A stretch of 39,428 nucleotides of DNA. Origin: a virus. Below the pieces are notes generated by a model. That model was not told the DNA's origin, did not search any database, and saw nothing but the letters and a program-made list of their open reading frames with translations. Below are positions 7,349-37,352 of the stretch, one piece after another. A program made the translations under genes and the position numbers. The stretch covers positions 1-39,428 of IMG/VR virus record IMGVR_UViG_3300025674_000115. One strand, given 5' to 3'. Within the stretch, counting starts at the first letter, position 1. Every line of letters begins with the position of its first letter.

Positions 7349-7574
7349 ACTTTGCTGCGAGTTGAGATAGCAAAGCTTTTACTTCTGCTAAATCACTTTT
7401 AATAGACTCAATTTCTTCTCTTTCTTTACTTCTTTGATCACGCAAAGAAATATATTTTTCATAGGCATTCTTATCCGTATTAATTATTGCTTTAGAGAAG
7501 GAATCCCTTTTGAGAGTAGTATTACCCTCTACAGGGATTAAATCCCTATCTTCCCTATCATATTGATTGTTCAT
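7344..7574 (-). CDS. Small charged coiled-coil protein
   Basis: This 76-aa protein has a polar N-terminus (MNNQYDREDRDLIPVEGNT) and a C-terminal coiled coil (EKYISLRDQRSKEREEIESI ... LAEVKALLSQLAAKL). It lies one base after the end of the 2486-aa baseplate gene and before the late promoter at 7341-7348, which its stop codon overlaps. Function unknown; the placement suggests a small virion or chaperone protein of the tail. Confidence 0.72.
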   Translation of the reverse strand: MNNQYDREDRDLIPVEGNTTLKRDSFSKAIINTDKNAYEKYISLRDQRSKEREEIESIKSDLAEVKALLSQLAAKL

Positions 7575-32816: not shown

Positions 32817-32830
32817 GTTCTTATAAGAAC
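32817..32830. repeat. Perfect palindrome GTTCTTATAAGAAC
   Basis: A 14-base perfect palindrome directly after the CTAAATA motif and 14 bases before the ATG at 32844, so it would be in or at the start of the 5' leader. Its core, CTTATAAG, recurs in many intergenic places to the right. It could be an operator or an RNA hairpin. Confidence 0.6.
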
Positions 32831-32843
32831 TCATAAGATACCC

Positions 32844-33383
32844 ATGGACGATCCACAACTCAAAAGTCTTATGGATACCTACCATAAGATGCTACAACAA
32901 GAACCTGGCGATGAATTTGAAGCAGAGCCCCTCACTGAACAAATTAGTTTCACTGTAGGAAGCACTGGTGGAAGTTCTGCTAGAAGACAGCAGAAGATCA
33001 ACAAGGCTGCTGATGCTGGTGTACCTAATGCCGCTGCTAAAGCTAAAGGCCCCCTACTTCCTGGTAGCATGGTAAAACTTGCTAATTCTTTTGAGGAAGA
33101 AGGTGAGAAGCTCGAAGAAGCATACGACATCGTTCTTGATTTTCTTATTTCAGAAGGTTATGCCGATTCCATCGAGAATGCCGATAAAATTATGGCAGTC
33201 ATGGCTGAGGACAAAATCAAAGAGATTGTCGAGCAAAGTGCTATTCGTATCAGAGCCATTAACGTTGTTGATGACCAGAGAAGAGGTTCTCATGGTATGG
33301 CAGATGATATGAATAAGACTAAGGAGACTCTCAGAAAAATGAGACCTTATCCAAACGGCTTCCCTGGCGTAAGAGGCGTATAA
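32844..33383 (+). CDS. Putative virion-associated cyanophage protein
   Basis: This 179-aa protein is on the plus strand, opposite to all the structural genes. It is mostly helical, with a disordered N-terminal part (GSTGGSSARRQQKINKAADA) and a C-terminal segment (LEEAYDIVLDFLISEGYADS, IENADKIMAVM) that I recognise as a short helical motif found in many cyanophage proteins. The end (MRPYPNGFPGVRGV) is basic and Gly/Pro-rich. It has its own CTAAATA motif upstream and a strong terminator downstream, so it is a single-gene unit, probably late. Function unknown. Confidence 0.78.
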   Translation: MDDPQLKSLMDTYHKMLQQEPGDEFEAEPLTEQISFTVGSTGGSSARRQQKINKAADAGVPNAAAKAKGPLLPGSMVKLANSFEEEGEKLEEAYDIVLDFLISEGYADSIENADKIMAVMAEDKIKEIVEQSAIRIRAINVVDDQRRGSHGMADDMNKTKETLRKMRPYPNGFPGVRGV

Positions 33384-33400
33384 AATCTTATAAGAATCTG

Positions 33401-33438
33401 AATCCCCTGGGAATTTTTTTTCCTGGGGGATTTTTTTT
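33401..33438 (+). terminator. Rho-independent terminator
   Basis: Stem AATCCCC (33401-33407) pairs with GGGGATT (33426-33432), with an inner GGAA/TTCC stem, followed by eight T residues. It lies 18 bases after the stop of the plus-strand 179-aa gene. Confidence 0.85.
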
Positions 33439-33635
33439 GTCTATAAGAATTCTTATACCCTCGGCGGCGGTCAGAAGAATATAAGAGATCTCTTGATATC
33501 TTATTTCTATAAAATCCCTCAGACGCTTTTTCATGGGCGAATTTTTTTTAAATCGAAGGATATTTAGAGGTCGATTTCAAGGTCTTATAGCTTAGGGAAG
33601 TTAGGCGTTTTTATATCAGGGGGGACGGCGGGGGC

Positions 33636-33695
33636 ACGATACCACGATCGGGCACTGCTGTCAAGGGGCTGTGTGCCACTTTGTTGACTGGCACA
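33636..33695 (-). promoter_or_regulatory. Sigma70-like promoter with upstream inverted repeat (copy A)
   Basis: On the minus strand: TTGACA (33664-33659), 17-base spacer, TATCGT (33641-33636). Seven bases upstream of TTGACA is a perfect inverted repeat TGTGCCA-N10-TGGCACA (33672-33695). The arrangement matches copies C and E, so the repeat is probably a binding site for a regulator. Confidence 0.6.
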
Positions 33696-33705
33696 GTATA
33701 AGAAA

Positions 33706-33723
33706 GGGCTGCGATTGCAGCCC
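33706..33723 (-). terminator. GC hairpin after minus-strand operon
   Basis: GGGCTGC-AATC-GCAGCCC on the minus strand, followed by TTTCTTAT. It lies 11 bases after the stop of the 46-aa membrane protein and probably ends the operon that begins at 34625. The T-run is short, so termination may be partial. Confidence 0.65.
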
Positions 33724-33734
33724 CTAAGTATACC

Positions 33735-33875
33735 TTACTTCTTGCAGTATTCTGGGTAATCTCTACAGAAATTCCCATACATTACGTCGTGTCTGTTTAT
33801 ACTTTGGGTCACAACAAAGAACCAAGGTATAAGAAACGAGAGGGCAAGAAACCAGCAGATTGTATAACCTTTCAT
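33735..33875 (-). CDS. Small single-pass membrane protein
   Basis: A 46-aa frame starting MKGYTICWFLALSFLIPWFF. Residues 4-23 form one hydrophobic helix, followed by a polar tail (SINRHDVMYGN) with two Cys residues near the end (C37, C44). Its ATG overlaps the stop of the preceding gene as ATGA, which supports it being translated. It could be an inner-membrane protein or a lipid-anchored regulator, but it lacks a lipobox. It resembles no holin I know beyond size and the single helix. Confidence 0.6.
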   Translation of the reverse strand: MKGYTICWFLALSFLIPWFFVVTQSINRHDVMYGNFCRDYPEYCKK

Positions 33876-34123
33876 CCGTACATCCTCACGAAATCTTTAT
33901 ACAAACCAACTGATACTTGTCGAGTATACCGTGGCAAGGATTGCAGCTCCTTAGGTATAGCATTGTAGCCATTGTAGCCCTCATCATATGCTTTAACCAA
34001 GGTGTGATTACGCCAGTGAACGTATACCCTACGCGGGTTTCCGTTCTTATCATTAATCGCCTGATAGTGAACAATACACTCCTCGGGTGACATGTAGGAG
34101 AGGTTAGGGTTAGCCATTGGCAT
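33872..34123 (-). CDS. Small hypothetical protein
   Basis: The start at the ATG at 34123 overlaps the upstream stop (TGATG), with GGAGG 10 bases upstream; a GTG at 34126 is an alternative with better spacing. The 83-aa product has ECIVHYQAINDKNGNPRRVY, VHWRNHTLVKAYDEGY and LQSLPRYTRQVSVGLYKDFV. It looks like a compact alpha/beta protein with many aromatic and basic residues. No family is recognised. Translationally linked with both neighbours. Confidence 0.68.
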   Translation of the reverse strand: MPMANPNLSYMSPEECIVHYQAINDKNGNPRRVYVHWRNHTLVKAYDEGYNGYNAIPKELQSLPRYTRQVSVGLYKDFVRMYG

Positions 34124-34278
34124 CACTTTACTGCCTCCAGAATGTTAGCGCGAACGCCACAGGAATTGTAGAATTGAACCATGGAAATAGCTTCCTCTTC
34201 AGTATAAAACTGTTGAGTGCGCCATTCTTCACTCAAACCCGCCGAAGGATAGGGGGTTTCGTATACAATAGTGATCAT
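34123..34278 (-). CDS. Small hypothetical protein
   Basis: The frame could extend to a TTG at 34326, but that stretch is the GC hairpin after the upstream gene. The ATG at 34278 (MITIVYETPYPSAGLSEEWR) is the likely start, giving 51 aa. The rest (TQQFYTEEEAISMVQFYNSC) resembles a short domain with an aromatic core. No clear ribosome binding site is seen, so coupling to upstream translation is possible. Function unknown. Confidence 0.6.
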   Translation of the reverse strand: MITIVYETPYPSAGLSEEWRTQQFYTEEEAISMVQFYNSCGVRANILEAVK

Positions 34279-34305
34279 TGTTTCAGTGGGGAAAGTGTAA
34301 GGAAA

Positions 34306-34324
34306 GGGGGAGGGATTCTCCCCC
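34306..34324 (-). terminator. GC hairpin after the 97-aa gene
   Basis: GGGGGAG-AATCC-CTCCCCC on the minus strand followed by TTTCCTT, 7 bases after the stop at 34332. A 7-bp stem with a short pyrimidine tail suggests a weak terminator or RNA processing site. The sequence GTATCAG lies next to it, as at the hairpin at 35236. Confidence 0.55.
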
Positions 34325-34331
34325 AATTGTA

Positions 34332-34625
34332 TCAGCCGACTCGCAAGTATTGCGTCACGGCGGTGATAACGAACTGACCCAAGTATTCAGCTCGGGCTTT
34401 CTCAGCCTTTACACTTGCTTCGAGGTTCTTTATAGTCTCCCCGAAATCTTTGGAGGTTCGCTGACAACGAAGGATGCGACCTTCCTTGACATTAACCTCT
34501 CCAACATTCTCGGCTTCCATCATACCTAGGAGATCCTTCTTTAGATTCTCCAGGCGCTTGGTTTCAGCCTTTAGGCGGCGATCCTCAGTGATGATCTGAG
34601 AAGCCAGTGTCTCGAAATCAGCCAT
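34332..34625 (-). CDS. Coiled-coil hypothetical protein
   Basis: This 97-aa protein (MADFETLASQIITEDRRLKA) has an N-terminal coiled coil (about residues 10-35), a short beta segment (EVNVKEGRILRCQRTSKDFG) and a second helix (TIKNLEASVKAEKARAEYLG). The helix-strand-helix layout resembles small phage proteins with an OB or nuclease-inhibitor-like look, but I cannot name a family. The ATG at 34625 lies about 54 bases after the TAGGAT -10 of promoter copy B. Confidence 0.68.
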   Translation of the reverse strand: MADFETLASQIITEDRRLKAETKRLENLKKDLLGMMEAENVGEVNVKEGRILRCQRTSKDFGETIKNLEASVKAEKARAEYLGQFVITAVTQYLRVG

Positions 34626-34810
34626 GGTGGCGATGGGGTTAGGTGTGCGGCGGATGTCTTTCGGATCCGCTTAAGCGTATCCTAAAGGGTTAGAGCCAGC
34701 TGATCAGCCCCTCGTGGGCCACTTCGGAAACTGGCACAGTCTTATGGGCGTTCTCATGAGAATCTGGCAGCCCATAGGGTAGACTCTTAAGACAAACGAA
34801 AGGGATCCCC
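34626..34810. other. Intergenic region with promoter and inverted repeat (copy B)
   Basis: About 185 bp with no gene. On the minus strand, CTGATC (34707-34702), a 17-base spacer and TAGGAT (34684-34679) form a weak promoter for the 97-aa gene. The inverted repeat is TGGGCCA-N10-TGGCACA (34715-34738), again seven bases from the -35-like box. The plus-strand gene at 34811 is divergent; I see no good promoter for it. Confidence 0.5.
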
Positions 34811-34999
34811 ATGCGACCCATTACCCAGGAGCAAATCAAATCAGCCATGGAAAGGTTGAACCGTGATCTGGAGCAATCATCGCAGCTGCGGCAGGTGCTG
34901 GCAACCTCTCAATGGTTAAGAGAATCTGAAAAGTTCAGATATAAAGTTTCGTTACGATACCGTGGCGTTACCTACCATCGCATGATAGAGCAGCCATAA
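34811..34999 (+). CDS. Small plus-strand hypothetical protein
   Basis: This 62-aa protein starts MRPITQEQIKSAMERLNRDL and has an N-terminal helix, then a basic patch (FRYKVSLRYRGVTYHRMIEQ). An AAAGGG sequence lies 7-12 bases upstream of the ATG. It is one of two plus-strand genes in this part and is divergent from the 97-aa gene. The end could fit a small nucleic-acid-binding protein; this is inference only. Confidence 0.5.
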   Translation: MRPITQEQIKSAMERLNRDLEQSSQLRQVLATSQWLRESEKFRYKVSLRYRGVTYHRMIEQP

Positions 35000-35194
35000 G
35001 ACCGTCTTATGTTACAGATCATGACAGGTGTGGCTTCAGGTGCCGCAGCCATGCCTGCCATGCTGTAGGATATGGGCACAACCGAAGGAGAGGCGGGGTA
35101 GCCTTGTAGACGAAAAAGGTCGTCACCTAACCTGCTTACCTATAATAATACTAAAATCTTTATACTTTCTTTCTATATTTTCTCTCTACATTTC

Positions 35195-35230
35195 AACTAG
35201 ATTCTTAACTAGATTCTGAACTAGATTTAT
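35195..35230. repeat. Three tandem 12-bp repeats (AACTAGATTCTT type)
   Basis: AACTAGATTCTT, AACTAGATTCTG and AACTAGATTTAT follow one another with an exact period of 12. The AACTAGAT core also occurs singly at 36596, 36629, 36896, 37107 and (AACTAGAC) 37129, some inside promoter spacers. Confidence 0.85.
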
Positions 35231-35235
35231 AAGAA

Positions 35236-35254
35236 GGGGGGAGATTATCCCCCC
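35236..35254 (-). terminator. GC hairpin after the putative winged-helix gene
   Basis: GGGGGGA-TAATC-TCCCCCC on the minus strand followed by TTCTTATAA, 8 bases after the stop at 35263. Very similar to the hairpin at 34306, including the nearby GTATCAG. Confidence 0.6.
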
Positions 35255-35262
35255 AGTTTGTA

Positions 35263-35604
35263 TCAGATAAGCTCTCGGAATGCCTTCCTGATCTTATCAC
35301 GTTTGCGAACTGCTGAGGGTAATAGAACCCAGAACACGTTGCGTTTGATCCTAACCCTTGTGACCTTACCTTGCCTCTCCATGGCTTTTAGAACACCATG
35401 GAAGCTTGTGCGGGGGATTGTATCATCAAACCCCAGATCGGCATGGAGATCGATCAGGCGGCGGCTGCGAGCTGGTGACTTAGCAAGCTGCCTCAGGATG
35501 GCAGCTTCGATTTGCTGGCGGGCTGTACGGTTGAACATCGGAGGAATCCCGTTGACTTGCTTACAATAGAGCATGATGGGGGTCTTGCGACCCCCCTGTA
35601 ACAT
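35263..35604 (-). CDS. Putative winged-helix DNA-binding protein
   Basis: This frame encodes up to 113 aa from an ATG that overlaps the upstream stop as TAATG. Codons 3-9 of that start lie in a GC hairpin, so the ATG at 35574 or at 35538 (MFNRTARQQIEAAILRQLAK) may be used instead. From there, DLHADLGFDDTIPRTSFHGV followed by LKAMERQGKVTRVRIKRNVF reads like a helix-turn-helix with a beta wing, as in small phage regulators. Basic C-terminus (RKRDKIRKAF). It could regulate genes nearby, including those with the repeat-linked promoters, but that is speculation. Confidence 0.6.
   Translation of the reverse strand: MLQGGRKTPIMLYCKQVNGIPPMFNRTARQQIEAAILRQLAKSPARSRRLIDLHADLGFDDTIPRTSFHGVLKAMERQGKVTRVRIKRNVFWVLLPSAVRKRDKIRKAFRELI
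35578..35595 (-). repeat. GC hairpin at end of DUF7227-like gene
   Basis: GGGGGTC-GCAA-GACCCCC on the minus strand, 8 bases after the stop at 35604. There is no T-run, so it is probably not a simple terminator. It overlaps the start of the next gene and could affect its translation. Confidence 0.6.
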
Positions 35605-36275
35605 TACGAAACAATCTCATTCACTGTCTTTTTAGCGTTACCATGTGCAGGGAAAGCTATAATAAACTCTCGGTCGGATTGTTGACACAAACCACAAGTC
35701 TTGCAGGTTACATTCTCGTGGATTGTTGCAGGGCAGGTGATAACTTTACGACCCGATTCTGTCTTGTAGAATCTATCGGTCTTGCTAGAGTTAACAACAG
35801 CAACTGCTGGAATCTTATGCTCCGACATTACTTTGTCGGCAACTTCTACCGACTCAGTGCTAACGTTGACCGTGAATCCTGCAGCGTTTGCATACTTAAT
35901 CACACCCAGGTTAGTTTCAGTCAACGGGTGATGAGTGTAAGTATAACCTTTGCGACCACGGTTAGCCTCAGCCAACTCTACTACTTTGTTGCCGTCGATT
36001 ACACCGTCAGAGACAACTGGCAGGTCACCAGATACATTGTGACGCCACAATTGTCCCCGTTGAAGTTTACGAACAAGCTTTAAGAATTCAGCCCATTCGT
36101 GACCACGTTCGCCTGCAGATACCTTGCCCCAGTGAATATTCTGGGGGCCAGATTTAGCGTAGCAACCCTTAAAGTAGAAAGGGCAGCCAGTCCAGCAGGT
36201 AGAACGGTCGGACGTGGTTGTGGGAATTGCGCCCGTCTTAGCGTTGCTGCTGATAGGGGTGAAAGCGGTAAGCAT
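35604..36275 (-). CDS. DUF7227-like conserved phage protein
   Basis: This 223-aa protein starts MLTAFTPISSNAKTGAIPTT and has CWTGCPFYFKGCYAKSGPQN, a Cys pattern I recall from DUF7227-type phage proteins. Then come WRHNVSGDLPVVSDGVIDGN, RGRKGYTYTHHPLTETNLGV and a C-terminal TCKTCGLCQQ segment. Cys residues near both ends suggest metal or Fe-S binding. No activity is known to me. The gene looks more GC-rich than the structural genes and resembles genes of siphophages, so recent transfer is possible. It has GAGG seven bases upstream and a TTGACG-N18-TATCTT promoter. Confidence 0.8.
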   Translation of the reverse strand: MLTAFTPISSNAKTGAIPTTTSDRSTCWTGCPFYFKGCYAKSGPQNIHWGKVSAGERGHEWAEFLKLVRKLQRGQLWRHNVSGDLPVVSDGVIDGNKVVELAEANRGRKGYTYTHHPLTETNLGVIKYANAAGFTVNVSTESVEVADKVMSEHKIPAVAVVNSSKTDRFYKTESGRKVITCPATIHENVTCKTCGLCQQSDREFIIAFPAHGNAKKTVNEIVS

Positions 36276-36298
36276 TGGAATGCCTCAGCGACTCCCAT

Positions 36299-36328
36299 AA
36301 GATACCAACGGATCAGGCAAGCCGTCAA
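36299..36328 (-). promoter_or_regulatory. Sigma70-like promoter of DUF7227-like gene
   Basis: TTGACG (36328-36323), 18-base spacer, TATCTT (36304-36299) on the minus strand, about 24 bases before the ATG at 36275. The -10 region continues TATCTTATGG, like the TAGTCTTATG of neighbouring promoters. Confidence 0.6.
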
Positions 36329-36379
36329 CCCCCTGACCCATTGGAGATCCTTATGGGTCTTATAAGATATTGTGTTGTT

Positions 36380-36592
36380 TCAAATTGTTGCAGCTTCCAT
36401 AAGATCGTCCAGAACCTCATTATTATAGAGATCCAGGATCTCATCTTTCATATCTTCTTCACTGGCAGAATCATAAGCATCCATTAGGAGATCATGTGCC
36501 ATTTGCATTAACGTATCCATATCCATATCGTCAATAATCTTTTCACAATAATCATACTTAAGTTTGGCAAGTTGCTGAGTGTTCAGAGTCAT
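36380..36592 (-). CDS. Small acidic helical protein
   Basis: This 70-aa protein starts at the ATG at 36592 (MTLNTQQLAKLKYDYCEKII). The frame is open to 36649, but that extra part is the promoter (TTGACA-N17-TAGTCT). It contains many Asp/Glu residues (DDMDMDTLMQMAHDLLMDAY, SASEEDMKDEI). No domain is recognised. It could be a small host-takeover or regulatory protein, given its own host-like promoter; this is inference. Confidence 0.68.
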   Translation of the reverse strand: MTLNTQQLAKLKYDYCEKIIDDMDMDTLMQMAHDLLMDAYDSASEEDMKDEILDLYNNEVLDDLMEAATI

Positions 36593-36620
36593 GTCAACTA
36601 GATTTGTCTGGGACTTCATA

Positions 36621-36649
36621 AGACTACCAACTAGATTCGGATTTGTCAA
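36621..36649 (-). promoter_or_regulatory. Sigma70-like promoter of 70-aa gene
   Basis: TTGACA (36649-36644), 17-base spacer ending GAATCTAGTTGG, TAGTCT (36626-36621) on the minus strand, continuing TAGTCTTATG. The ATG at 36592 lies about 28 bases downstream. It has no inverted repeat upstream. Confidence 0.7.
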
Positions 36650-36864
36650 GTGGATGCAATCATACGATAATCTAATGATTCAATCAGCCAACCAGTAGCA
36701 GCAGTGATCTCTTCTACAAGATCATCACCATCTTCGGCTTCCCACATGCTACCAAGAATCTCATCGTAAACTTCCTTTTGTTCTTCTTCAGGAAGTTCAT
36801 AAGAACCGTGTGTCTCTAGGCAACCAGTGAAATCGAACTTGATCTCAGTGACTTGATAGATCAT
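36646..36864 (-). CDS. Small acidic protein
   Basis: This 72-aa protein starts at the ATG at 36864 (MIYQVTEIKFDFTGCLETHG). The frame is open to a TTG at 36897, but that stretch is the promoter. It reads as a beta hairpin then helices (YDEILGSMWEAEDGDDLVEE, ITAATGWLIESLDYRMIAST). Strongly acidic, no known family. Its promoter shares the layout of the next gene's promoter, so the two may be co-regulated. Confidence 0.66.
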   Translation of the reverse strand: MIYQVTEIKFDFTGCLETHGSYELPEEEQKEVYDEILGSMWEAEDGDDLVEEITAATGWLIESLDYRMIAST

Positions 36865-36887
36865 TGGACTGATTTGAAGACCCCATA

Positions 36888-36946
36888 AGACTATCAACTA
36901 GATCAGAGCCTGTCAATGGTCTTGTGCCAGTTTCTAAACTGTCTAC
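36888..36946 (-). promoter_or_regulatory. Sigma70-like promoter with upstream inverted repeat (copy C)
   Basis: TTGACA (36916-36911), 17-base spacer with GATCTAGTTG, TAGTCT (36893-36888), continuing TAGTCTTATG, on the minus strand. Six bases upstream of TTGACA is a degenerate copy of the inverted repeat (plus strand TGTGCCA-N10-TGTCTAC, 36923-36946). The ATG at 36864 is about 24 bases downstream. Confidence 0.65.
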
Positions 36947-36999
36947 CGAAGGTTCTTTTTGTCCCTGGCTGTCTTATAGTAGAGGTAGAATCTTATAAG

Positions 37000-37051
37000 T
37001 TTTCCACAGTTTCCACAGATTCCACAGGTTTTTCCACAGCCCTGTGGAAAA
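37000..37051. promoter_or_regulatory. Cluster of five DnaA-box-like motifs
   Basis: TTTTCCACA at 37000-37008 and 37030-37038 on plus, and at 37043-37051 on minus, are perfect. GTTTCCACA at 37009-37017 and GATTCCACA at 37018-37026 are near matches. The last two perfect sites form an inverted repeat TTTTCCACAG-CC-CTGTGGAAAA. Confidence 0.7.
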
Positions 37052-37077
37052 CTATAAGACTACTGAGACTCTCCCCT

Positions 37078-37101
37078 TGTGCCACTTCAGAAACTGTCCC
37101 A
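37078..37101. repeat. Inverted-repeat copy D
   Basis: TGTGCCA-N10-TGTCCCA on plus. There is no TTGACA at the usual 6-7 base distance. A weak minus-strand -35 (GTGGCA) would overlap it, 17 bases from a TAGTCT -10. Confidence 0.6.
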
Positions 37102-37121
37102 GTCTCAACTAGATTCTTATA

Positions 37122-37217
37122 AGACCTGAACTAGACTCGGAGGGTGTCAAGTGGGAATGTGCCAGTTCTTATAGTGTCACAGCGGGTCTTGACAAAACGG
37201 CGGTCTTATGATAGGGC
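37122..37217. promoter_or_regulatory. Bidirectional promoter element around inverted-repeat copy E
   Basis: The inverted repeat TGTGCCA-N10-TGTCACA (37158-37181) is flanked by TTGACA at exactly seven bases on both sides: minus strand at 37150-37145, plus strand at 37189-37194. Seventeen bases beyond lie AGGTCT (37127-37122) on minus, continuing AGGTCTTATAAG, and TAGGGC (37212-37217) on plus. The -10 boxes are weak. Confidence 0.55.
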
Positions 37218-37244
37218 GCAGCCCAAGACAACGATAAGATCGCA

Positions 37245-37252
37245 TATTTATA
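37245..37252 (-). promoter_or_regulatory. TATAAATA late-promoter motif in the intergenic block
   Basis: A perfect TATAAATA on the minus strand, within the AT-rich part of the candidate origin. There is no gene start just downstream on that strand, so it may be a chance match in AT-rich DNA, or it may start a transcript through the origin. Confidence 0.35.
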
Positions 37253-37279
37253 AGACTTTTATGAGACGTTATAGAATAC

Positions 37280-37291
37280 AAACATATGTTT
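37280..37291. repeat. Perfect palindrome AAACATATGTTT
   Basis: A 12-base palindrome in the AT-rich segment, followed by a T-run and TTTAAACATTTAAAG. It may be an easily melted element of the origin. Confidence 0.6.
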
Positions 37292-37307
37292 TTTTAAACA
37301 TTTAAAG

Positions 37308-37325
37308 TTTTCCACAATTTCCACA
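37308..37325 (+). promoter_or_regulatory. Second pair of DnaA-box-like motifs
   Basis: TTTTCCACA (37308-37316, perfect) followed directly by ATTTCCACA (37317-37325, one mismatch). With the cluster at 37000-37051 it flanks the AT-rich segment. Confidence 0.65.
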
Positions 37326-37352
37326 GGTTTCTCCGTAAATGTCTTCAAACCC

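Follow-up and report, generated by a model that had tools for sequence, protein, structure and literature searches.

A yfr2-type inverted-repeat promoter element in T4-like cyanophages, probably read by the host regulator PlmA

Among marine viruses, T4-like cyanophages are some of the most abundant, and the control of their many small accessory genes is poorly known. The window analyzed here, which is the whole 39.4-kb stretch of the IMG/VR virus record IMGVR_UViG_3300025674_000115, is made up of T4-like baseplate and tail genes, and its nearest named relative is the Synechococcus phage DSL-LC03 from Dishui Lake. It carries five copies of an inverted repeat, TGTGCCA-N10-TGGCACA, and the question raised by this locus is which protein, phage or host, reads them and with what effect on the genes downstream. 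The answer that we consider likely is that T4-like cyanophages copied the promoter element of the host yfr2 genes, so that the host GntR-family protein PlmA turns on accessory genes of the phage, which are probably early. This reading is consistent with a rigid promoter geometry found across related phages and with the same half-site at the same position in front of host yfr2.

The inverted repeat and its promoter geometry

The repeats of the window and the promoters and open reading frames (ORFs) beside them are as follows.

33672 to 33695, minus strand: site A, TGTGCCA-N10-TGGCACA without mismatch, followed after 7 bp by a promoter on the same strand
33636 to 33664, minus strand: promoter A, TTGACA (33659-33664), 17 bp, TATCGT (33636-33641)
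34715 to 34738, minus strand: site B, one mismatch to TGTGCCA-N10-TGGCACA
34679 to 34707, minus strand: promoter B, gap of 7 bp, CTGATC, 17 bp, TAGGAT; upstream of the ORF at 34625-34332
34332 to 34625, minus strand: small ORF downstream of promoter B
36923 to 36946, minus strand: site C, left arm perfect, right arm degenerate (TGTCTAC); conserved in DSL-LC03
36888 to 36916, minus strand: promoter C, gap of 6 bp, TTGACA, 17 bp, TAGTCT
36646 to 36864, minus strand: small ORF downstream of promoter C, PHROG 2460
37078 to 37101, no strand assigned: site D, two mismatches, no recognizable promoter
37158 to 37181, no strand assigned: site E, one mismatch; conserved in DSL-LC03

The initial annotation had described five repeats confined to gene-free gaps, with site A perfect, and had placed A, C, and E 6 to 7 bp from a TTGACA box followed by a 17-bp spacer. 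All five are real, scoring 17 to 19 of 20 against the fuller consensus TGTGMCASTT-N4-AASTGKCACA; about 0.05 matches of at least 17/20 are expected from Markov-shuffled windows, and the next best match in the window scores 14. The right arm of site C is nonetheless a poor one. None of the five lies in a credible gene, and site A is indeed perfect. The distance to TTGACA holds for A, C, and E, and the 17-bp spacer for A and C; site E has a TTGACA box on either flank, each at a distance of 7 bp (minus strand at 37145-37150, plus strand at 37189-37194), and its minus-strand reading (gap of 7 bp, TTGACA) ends in only a weak -10 box (AGGTCT). Site B shows the geometry, with a weak -35 box, that had been ascribed to it. 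The assignable sites thus face minus-strand promoters, clearly for A and C and less so for B. Between the palindrome of site C and the ATG (36864) of the ORF that follows promoter C, the distance is 58 bp. In DSL-LC03, sites C and E are kept with their -35 boxes in place, and D is degenerate. Counting matches with at most three mismatches, the window holds four sites against 1.3 +/- 1.2 expected, which is mildly unusual; the certainty that the repeats are real comes from the family-wide evidence rather than from this count.

A motif search of the window, related phages, and host genomes, as the initial annotation had advised, found the repeat above chance in the window and widespread in T4-like cyanophages. 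In these phages, more than 100 IMG/VR contigs included, a single record holds up to 14 copies of the form TGTGMCA-N10-TGKCACA. An exact scan of IMG/VR with a strict version returned more than 120 viral contig stretches among the matches listed, and the same scan of bacterial and archaeal genomes (257 Gb) returned 24 matches. Within the fetched loci (1.03 Mb), N10 lies between the half-sites in 254 cases, N11 in 4, and other spacings almost never, and the fifth arm position takes most of the tolerated changes (C to A or G to T). Exact sites are present in Syn9, S-PM2, P-SSM2, P-SSM4, S-CRM01, P-HM1, S-SM1, and DSL-LC02, and 15 of 20 large site-bearing contigs carry a T4-type portal gene. No exact site was found in T4, S-TIM5, Ma-LMM01, the podophages P-SSP7 and Syn5, the siphophage PSS2, or one pelagiphage. 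At two mismatches, most phages with exact sites have 8 to 18 matches and those without have 0 to 3 each; S-RSM4, S-SM2, S-CREM1, and DSL-LC03 are T4-like cyanophages with degenerate copies only. Chance or base composition as the origin of the repeats is ruled out by the rigidity of the N10 spacing, the IMG/VR counts set against the genome counts, the spacing to TTGACA, and the scores in the window. At several S-CRM01 sites (for example at 140254, 143663, and 149101), the TGA within the TGTGACA arm ends the upstream gene as its stop codon, and the sites are therefore tightly packed between genes.

Among 382 distinct sites, an exact TTGACA follows the palindrome at 6 or 7 bp 23 times, against a background of 0.2 per offset, and the oriented logo of the phage sites shows a -35 box, 17 bp, and a -10 box. 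The arrangement seen across the family is the site, 6 to 7 bp, a -35 box, a spacer of 16 to 18 bp, and a -10 box, so that a sigma-70-type promoter stands beside the site family-wide; within the window, this is clear for A and C and weak for B. The 24-bp site would thus be the activator-binding part of a single sigma-70-type promoter unit. The distance from palindrome to start codon is 58 to 67 bp in 12 tabulated sites (four named phages and window site C), a set drawn from annotation and ORFs, with other sites in these phages lying further off or lacking a clear downstream gene. The idea that one regulator acts at a fixed distance on accessory-gene promoters is borne out as a pattern by these related sequences. 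Many such phage promoters (in at least four of the loci compared, one of them at position 7559) also contain a further inverted repeat, variable in sequence, whose arms stand before the -35 box and immediately before the -10 box, e.g., AGGGCATCCT...AGGATGCCCTATAAT; stems of at least 6 bp occur in 20 of 117 promoters, where gap-swapped controls give about 6.6.

A protein site shared with host yfr2 promoters

PeSL (promoter early stem loop) promoter-terminator cassettes, described in T4-like phages (in a discussion within PMC4503421), likewise lie between small accessory genes and combine an inverted repeat with a promoter of early type. Were the palindrome the stem-loop of such a cassette, it would end the upstream transcript and help modules to shuffle. 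The location of the sites between small accessory genes fits this, and one S-CRM01 site carries a rho-independent terminator annotation. However, the variable arm position is anti-complementary (31% versus 46% expected, z = -5.1, 238 non-redundant sites), and a T-run follows the repeat in only 11 of 476 cases over both orientations, below the control count of 24. Because of these two features, the palindrome is, as far as sequence can tell, a protein site on double-stranded DNA and not a terminator. Unlike the PeSL cassettes, the phage sites have protein-site statistics and no terminator or hairpin signature; together with the rigid N10 spacing and the presence of the same element before host yfr2, this makes a PeSL stem-loop extremely unlikely. 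An intrinsic terminator or RNA hairpin was likewise rejected, as a hairpin with a T-run was not found.

Nor does the site match the regulators that come to mind first. The NtcA site GTA-N8-TAC is present neither in the five window palindromes nor in the family consensus. The CRP/SyCRP site (TGTGA-N6-TCACA) has the TGTG...CACA ends in common with the repeat, but here these read TGTGA-N14-TCACA with a longer half-site, and N10 separates 7-bp arms. The earlier view that the site is not one for NtcA, LexA, or CRP is therefore upheld, and the element shared with yfr2 instead suggests a GntR/PlmA-type regulator from the host.

The link to yfr2 is visible in one cyanobacterial metagenome-assembled genome, where the match from the exact genome scan sits 40 bp upstream of a Cyano-1 RNA (RF01701), which we take to be the Yfr2 small RNA family. 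It was also sought in 90 host yfr2 upstream regions, with yfr2 starts set at the 5' end of the Rfam model. The 7-mers most enriched there, obtained without phage input, are GACAGTT, TGTGACA, GTGCCAG, and similar words, which are pieces of TGTGMCAGTTG. A matrix derived from the phages has its best match at -68 to -56 in 61 of the 90 regions, against 9.2 expected; the -10 box starts 53 to 54 bp from the start of the site, as in the phages; and the right half stands in the N4-centre register in 41 of 42 host sites. In 26 further yfr2 promoters sampled across the class, N10 was the best of 14 spacers tested, and a match of at least 11/14, starting at -60 to -64, occurs in 11 of the 26 compared to 1 of 208 background windows. 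The sequence and its position relative to the -10 box and the start are thus common to both. Since half-site (TGTGMCAGTT), spacing (N10 in many cyanobacteria), position, and -10 distance are all shared, the phage and host promoters have one architecture. The differences are that the phage copies accompany many protein-gene promoters and have both half-sites near consensus; the phage site can be described as a copy, at high consensus, of the element found in cyanobacteria at this position before the conserved small RNA gene yfr2.

Four Cyanobium-like host genomes also carry homologues of the palindrome in this promoter geometry, and in three of these genomes the copy lies approximately 400 bp upstream of the 16S ribosomal RNA gene. 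A general activator of ribosomal RNA promoters was rejected, as no site was found upstream of 30 other 16S genes, and any such link is therefore at most lineage-specific.

The candidate regulator

In Prochlorococcus MED4, the GntR-family protein PMM1637 (PlmA) binds yfr2 promoter regions carrying the CGRE1 motif, which is found nowhere else in that genome, and it mediates the induction of Yfr2 under nitrogen starvation and high light (PMC6778093). PlmA, a GntR-family regulator, is universal in cyanobacteria and confined to them; it interacts with PII-PipX and is reduced by thioredoxin, and the Yfr2 work is cited for it (PMC7344720). As the element is common to host yfr2 promoters, a host regulator of the GntR/PlmA type is indicated, and host PlmA probably binds the phage sites and activates their promoters. 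In this mechanism, PlmA, present in the cell beforehand, would occupy the site as a dimer, some 55 bp ahead of the start, and help the host RNA polymerase to fire the promoters of small accessory genes. That these genes are early is probable from the promoter type.

A phage-encoded DNA-binding protein of T4-like cyanophages might instead read the site, activating delayed-early genes or shutting off early ones, in which case the likeness to yfr2 would have arisen by convergence, or the host regulator would face competition from the phage protein. The perfect palindrome is indeed common in T4-like cyanophages and at about chance level in host genomes, and other phages of the same hosts lack it. 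However, the half-site, N10 spacing, position, and promoter geometry are the same as those of yfr2 across cyanobacteria. A GntR protein of phage origin was rejected as the binder, since none of the 15 phage genomes tested encodes a GntR domain, in a survey confined to that domain among phage DNA-binding families. The initial annotation had put forward the winged-helix-like protein at 35263-35604, the only one of its kind in the window. This protein has a weak PaaX-like Pfam match, no PHROG match, and a relative in just one fetched viral locus; being rare whereas the site is widespread, it is unsupported as the binder. We therefore regard a phage protein as unlikely.

Repressors are frequent among GntR proteins, and the host regulator could bind the phage promoters and repress them, either as a host brake or as a timer chosen by the phage. 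Against this, the site is separated from the -35 box downstream of it by 6 to 7 bp and leaves the core promoter free, and PMM1637 is reported to mediate the induction of Yfr2 (PMC6778093). Repression thus appears very unlikely.

Several points nevertheless weigh against activation by host PlmA. The podophages and the siphophage that infect the same hosts do not have the site, and the compared sequences are partly related, so that the counts are not fully independent. Perfect sites occur in 12 of 300 Cyanobiaceae genomes, which is about chance, and a host regulon with abundant perfect sites was discarded on this count. The second half-site is weak in picocyanobacterial yfr2 promoters, which often have an everted pair upstream, AACTGKCAC-(A/T)-GTGMCAGTT (a near match in 27 of the 90 upstream regions), whereas the phage half-sites are face-to-face. 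Finally, the phage element is putatively the published CGRE1 element, with which it is equated by way of the yfr2 promoters.

By copying the yfr2 architecture, T4-like cyanophages may have wired a whole set of accessory promoters to PlmA, which earlier work ties to nitrogen signalling through PII-PipX and to the redox state of thioredoxin; the expression of these genes would then read the nitrogen, light, or redox state of the host, and phage DNA could titrate PlmA off yfr2; we consider the chances of this evenly balanced. The co-option of a host regulator is of a kind already known, since Sullivan et al. looked for NtcA and Pho sites in the promoters of cyanophages (PMC3037559), which are also sites for host factors. 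The present element differs from these boxes in regulator and sequence, and those were predicted as scattered (1 to 16 NtcA sites per genome), whereas here there is one fixed geometry. No earlier report of the phage element was found in the literature searched, which left out Lambrecht 2018, Comeau 2014, and Arbiol 2010. A short site of rigid geometry makes such promoters annotatable in metagenomes, and a concrete host protein, universal in cyanobacteria and poorly characterized, is named as the likely switch. Taken together, the host and phage sequences also give a phylum-wide consensus for the presumed binding site of PlmA.

Other repeats in the accessory region

The gene-free gap that holds sites C, D, and E also contains a cluster of DnaA-box-like TTTTCCACA copies at 36995-37330 (37000, 37030, and 37308 on the plus strand and 37043 on the minus strand). 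Clusters of TTTTCCACA near the palindromes are likewise present in DSL-LC03 (five boxes), S-PM2, and several other viral loci, and the cluster in the window is a candidate replication origin. Two further words recur in this region: CTTATAAG, with five copies that all fall within the accessory stretch (32820-37116), and ACTAGATT, with six copies in 35196-37108. Parts of both are found in the promoter spacers.

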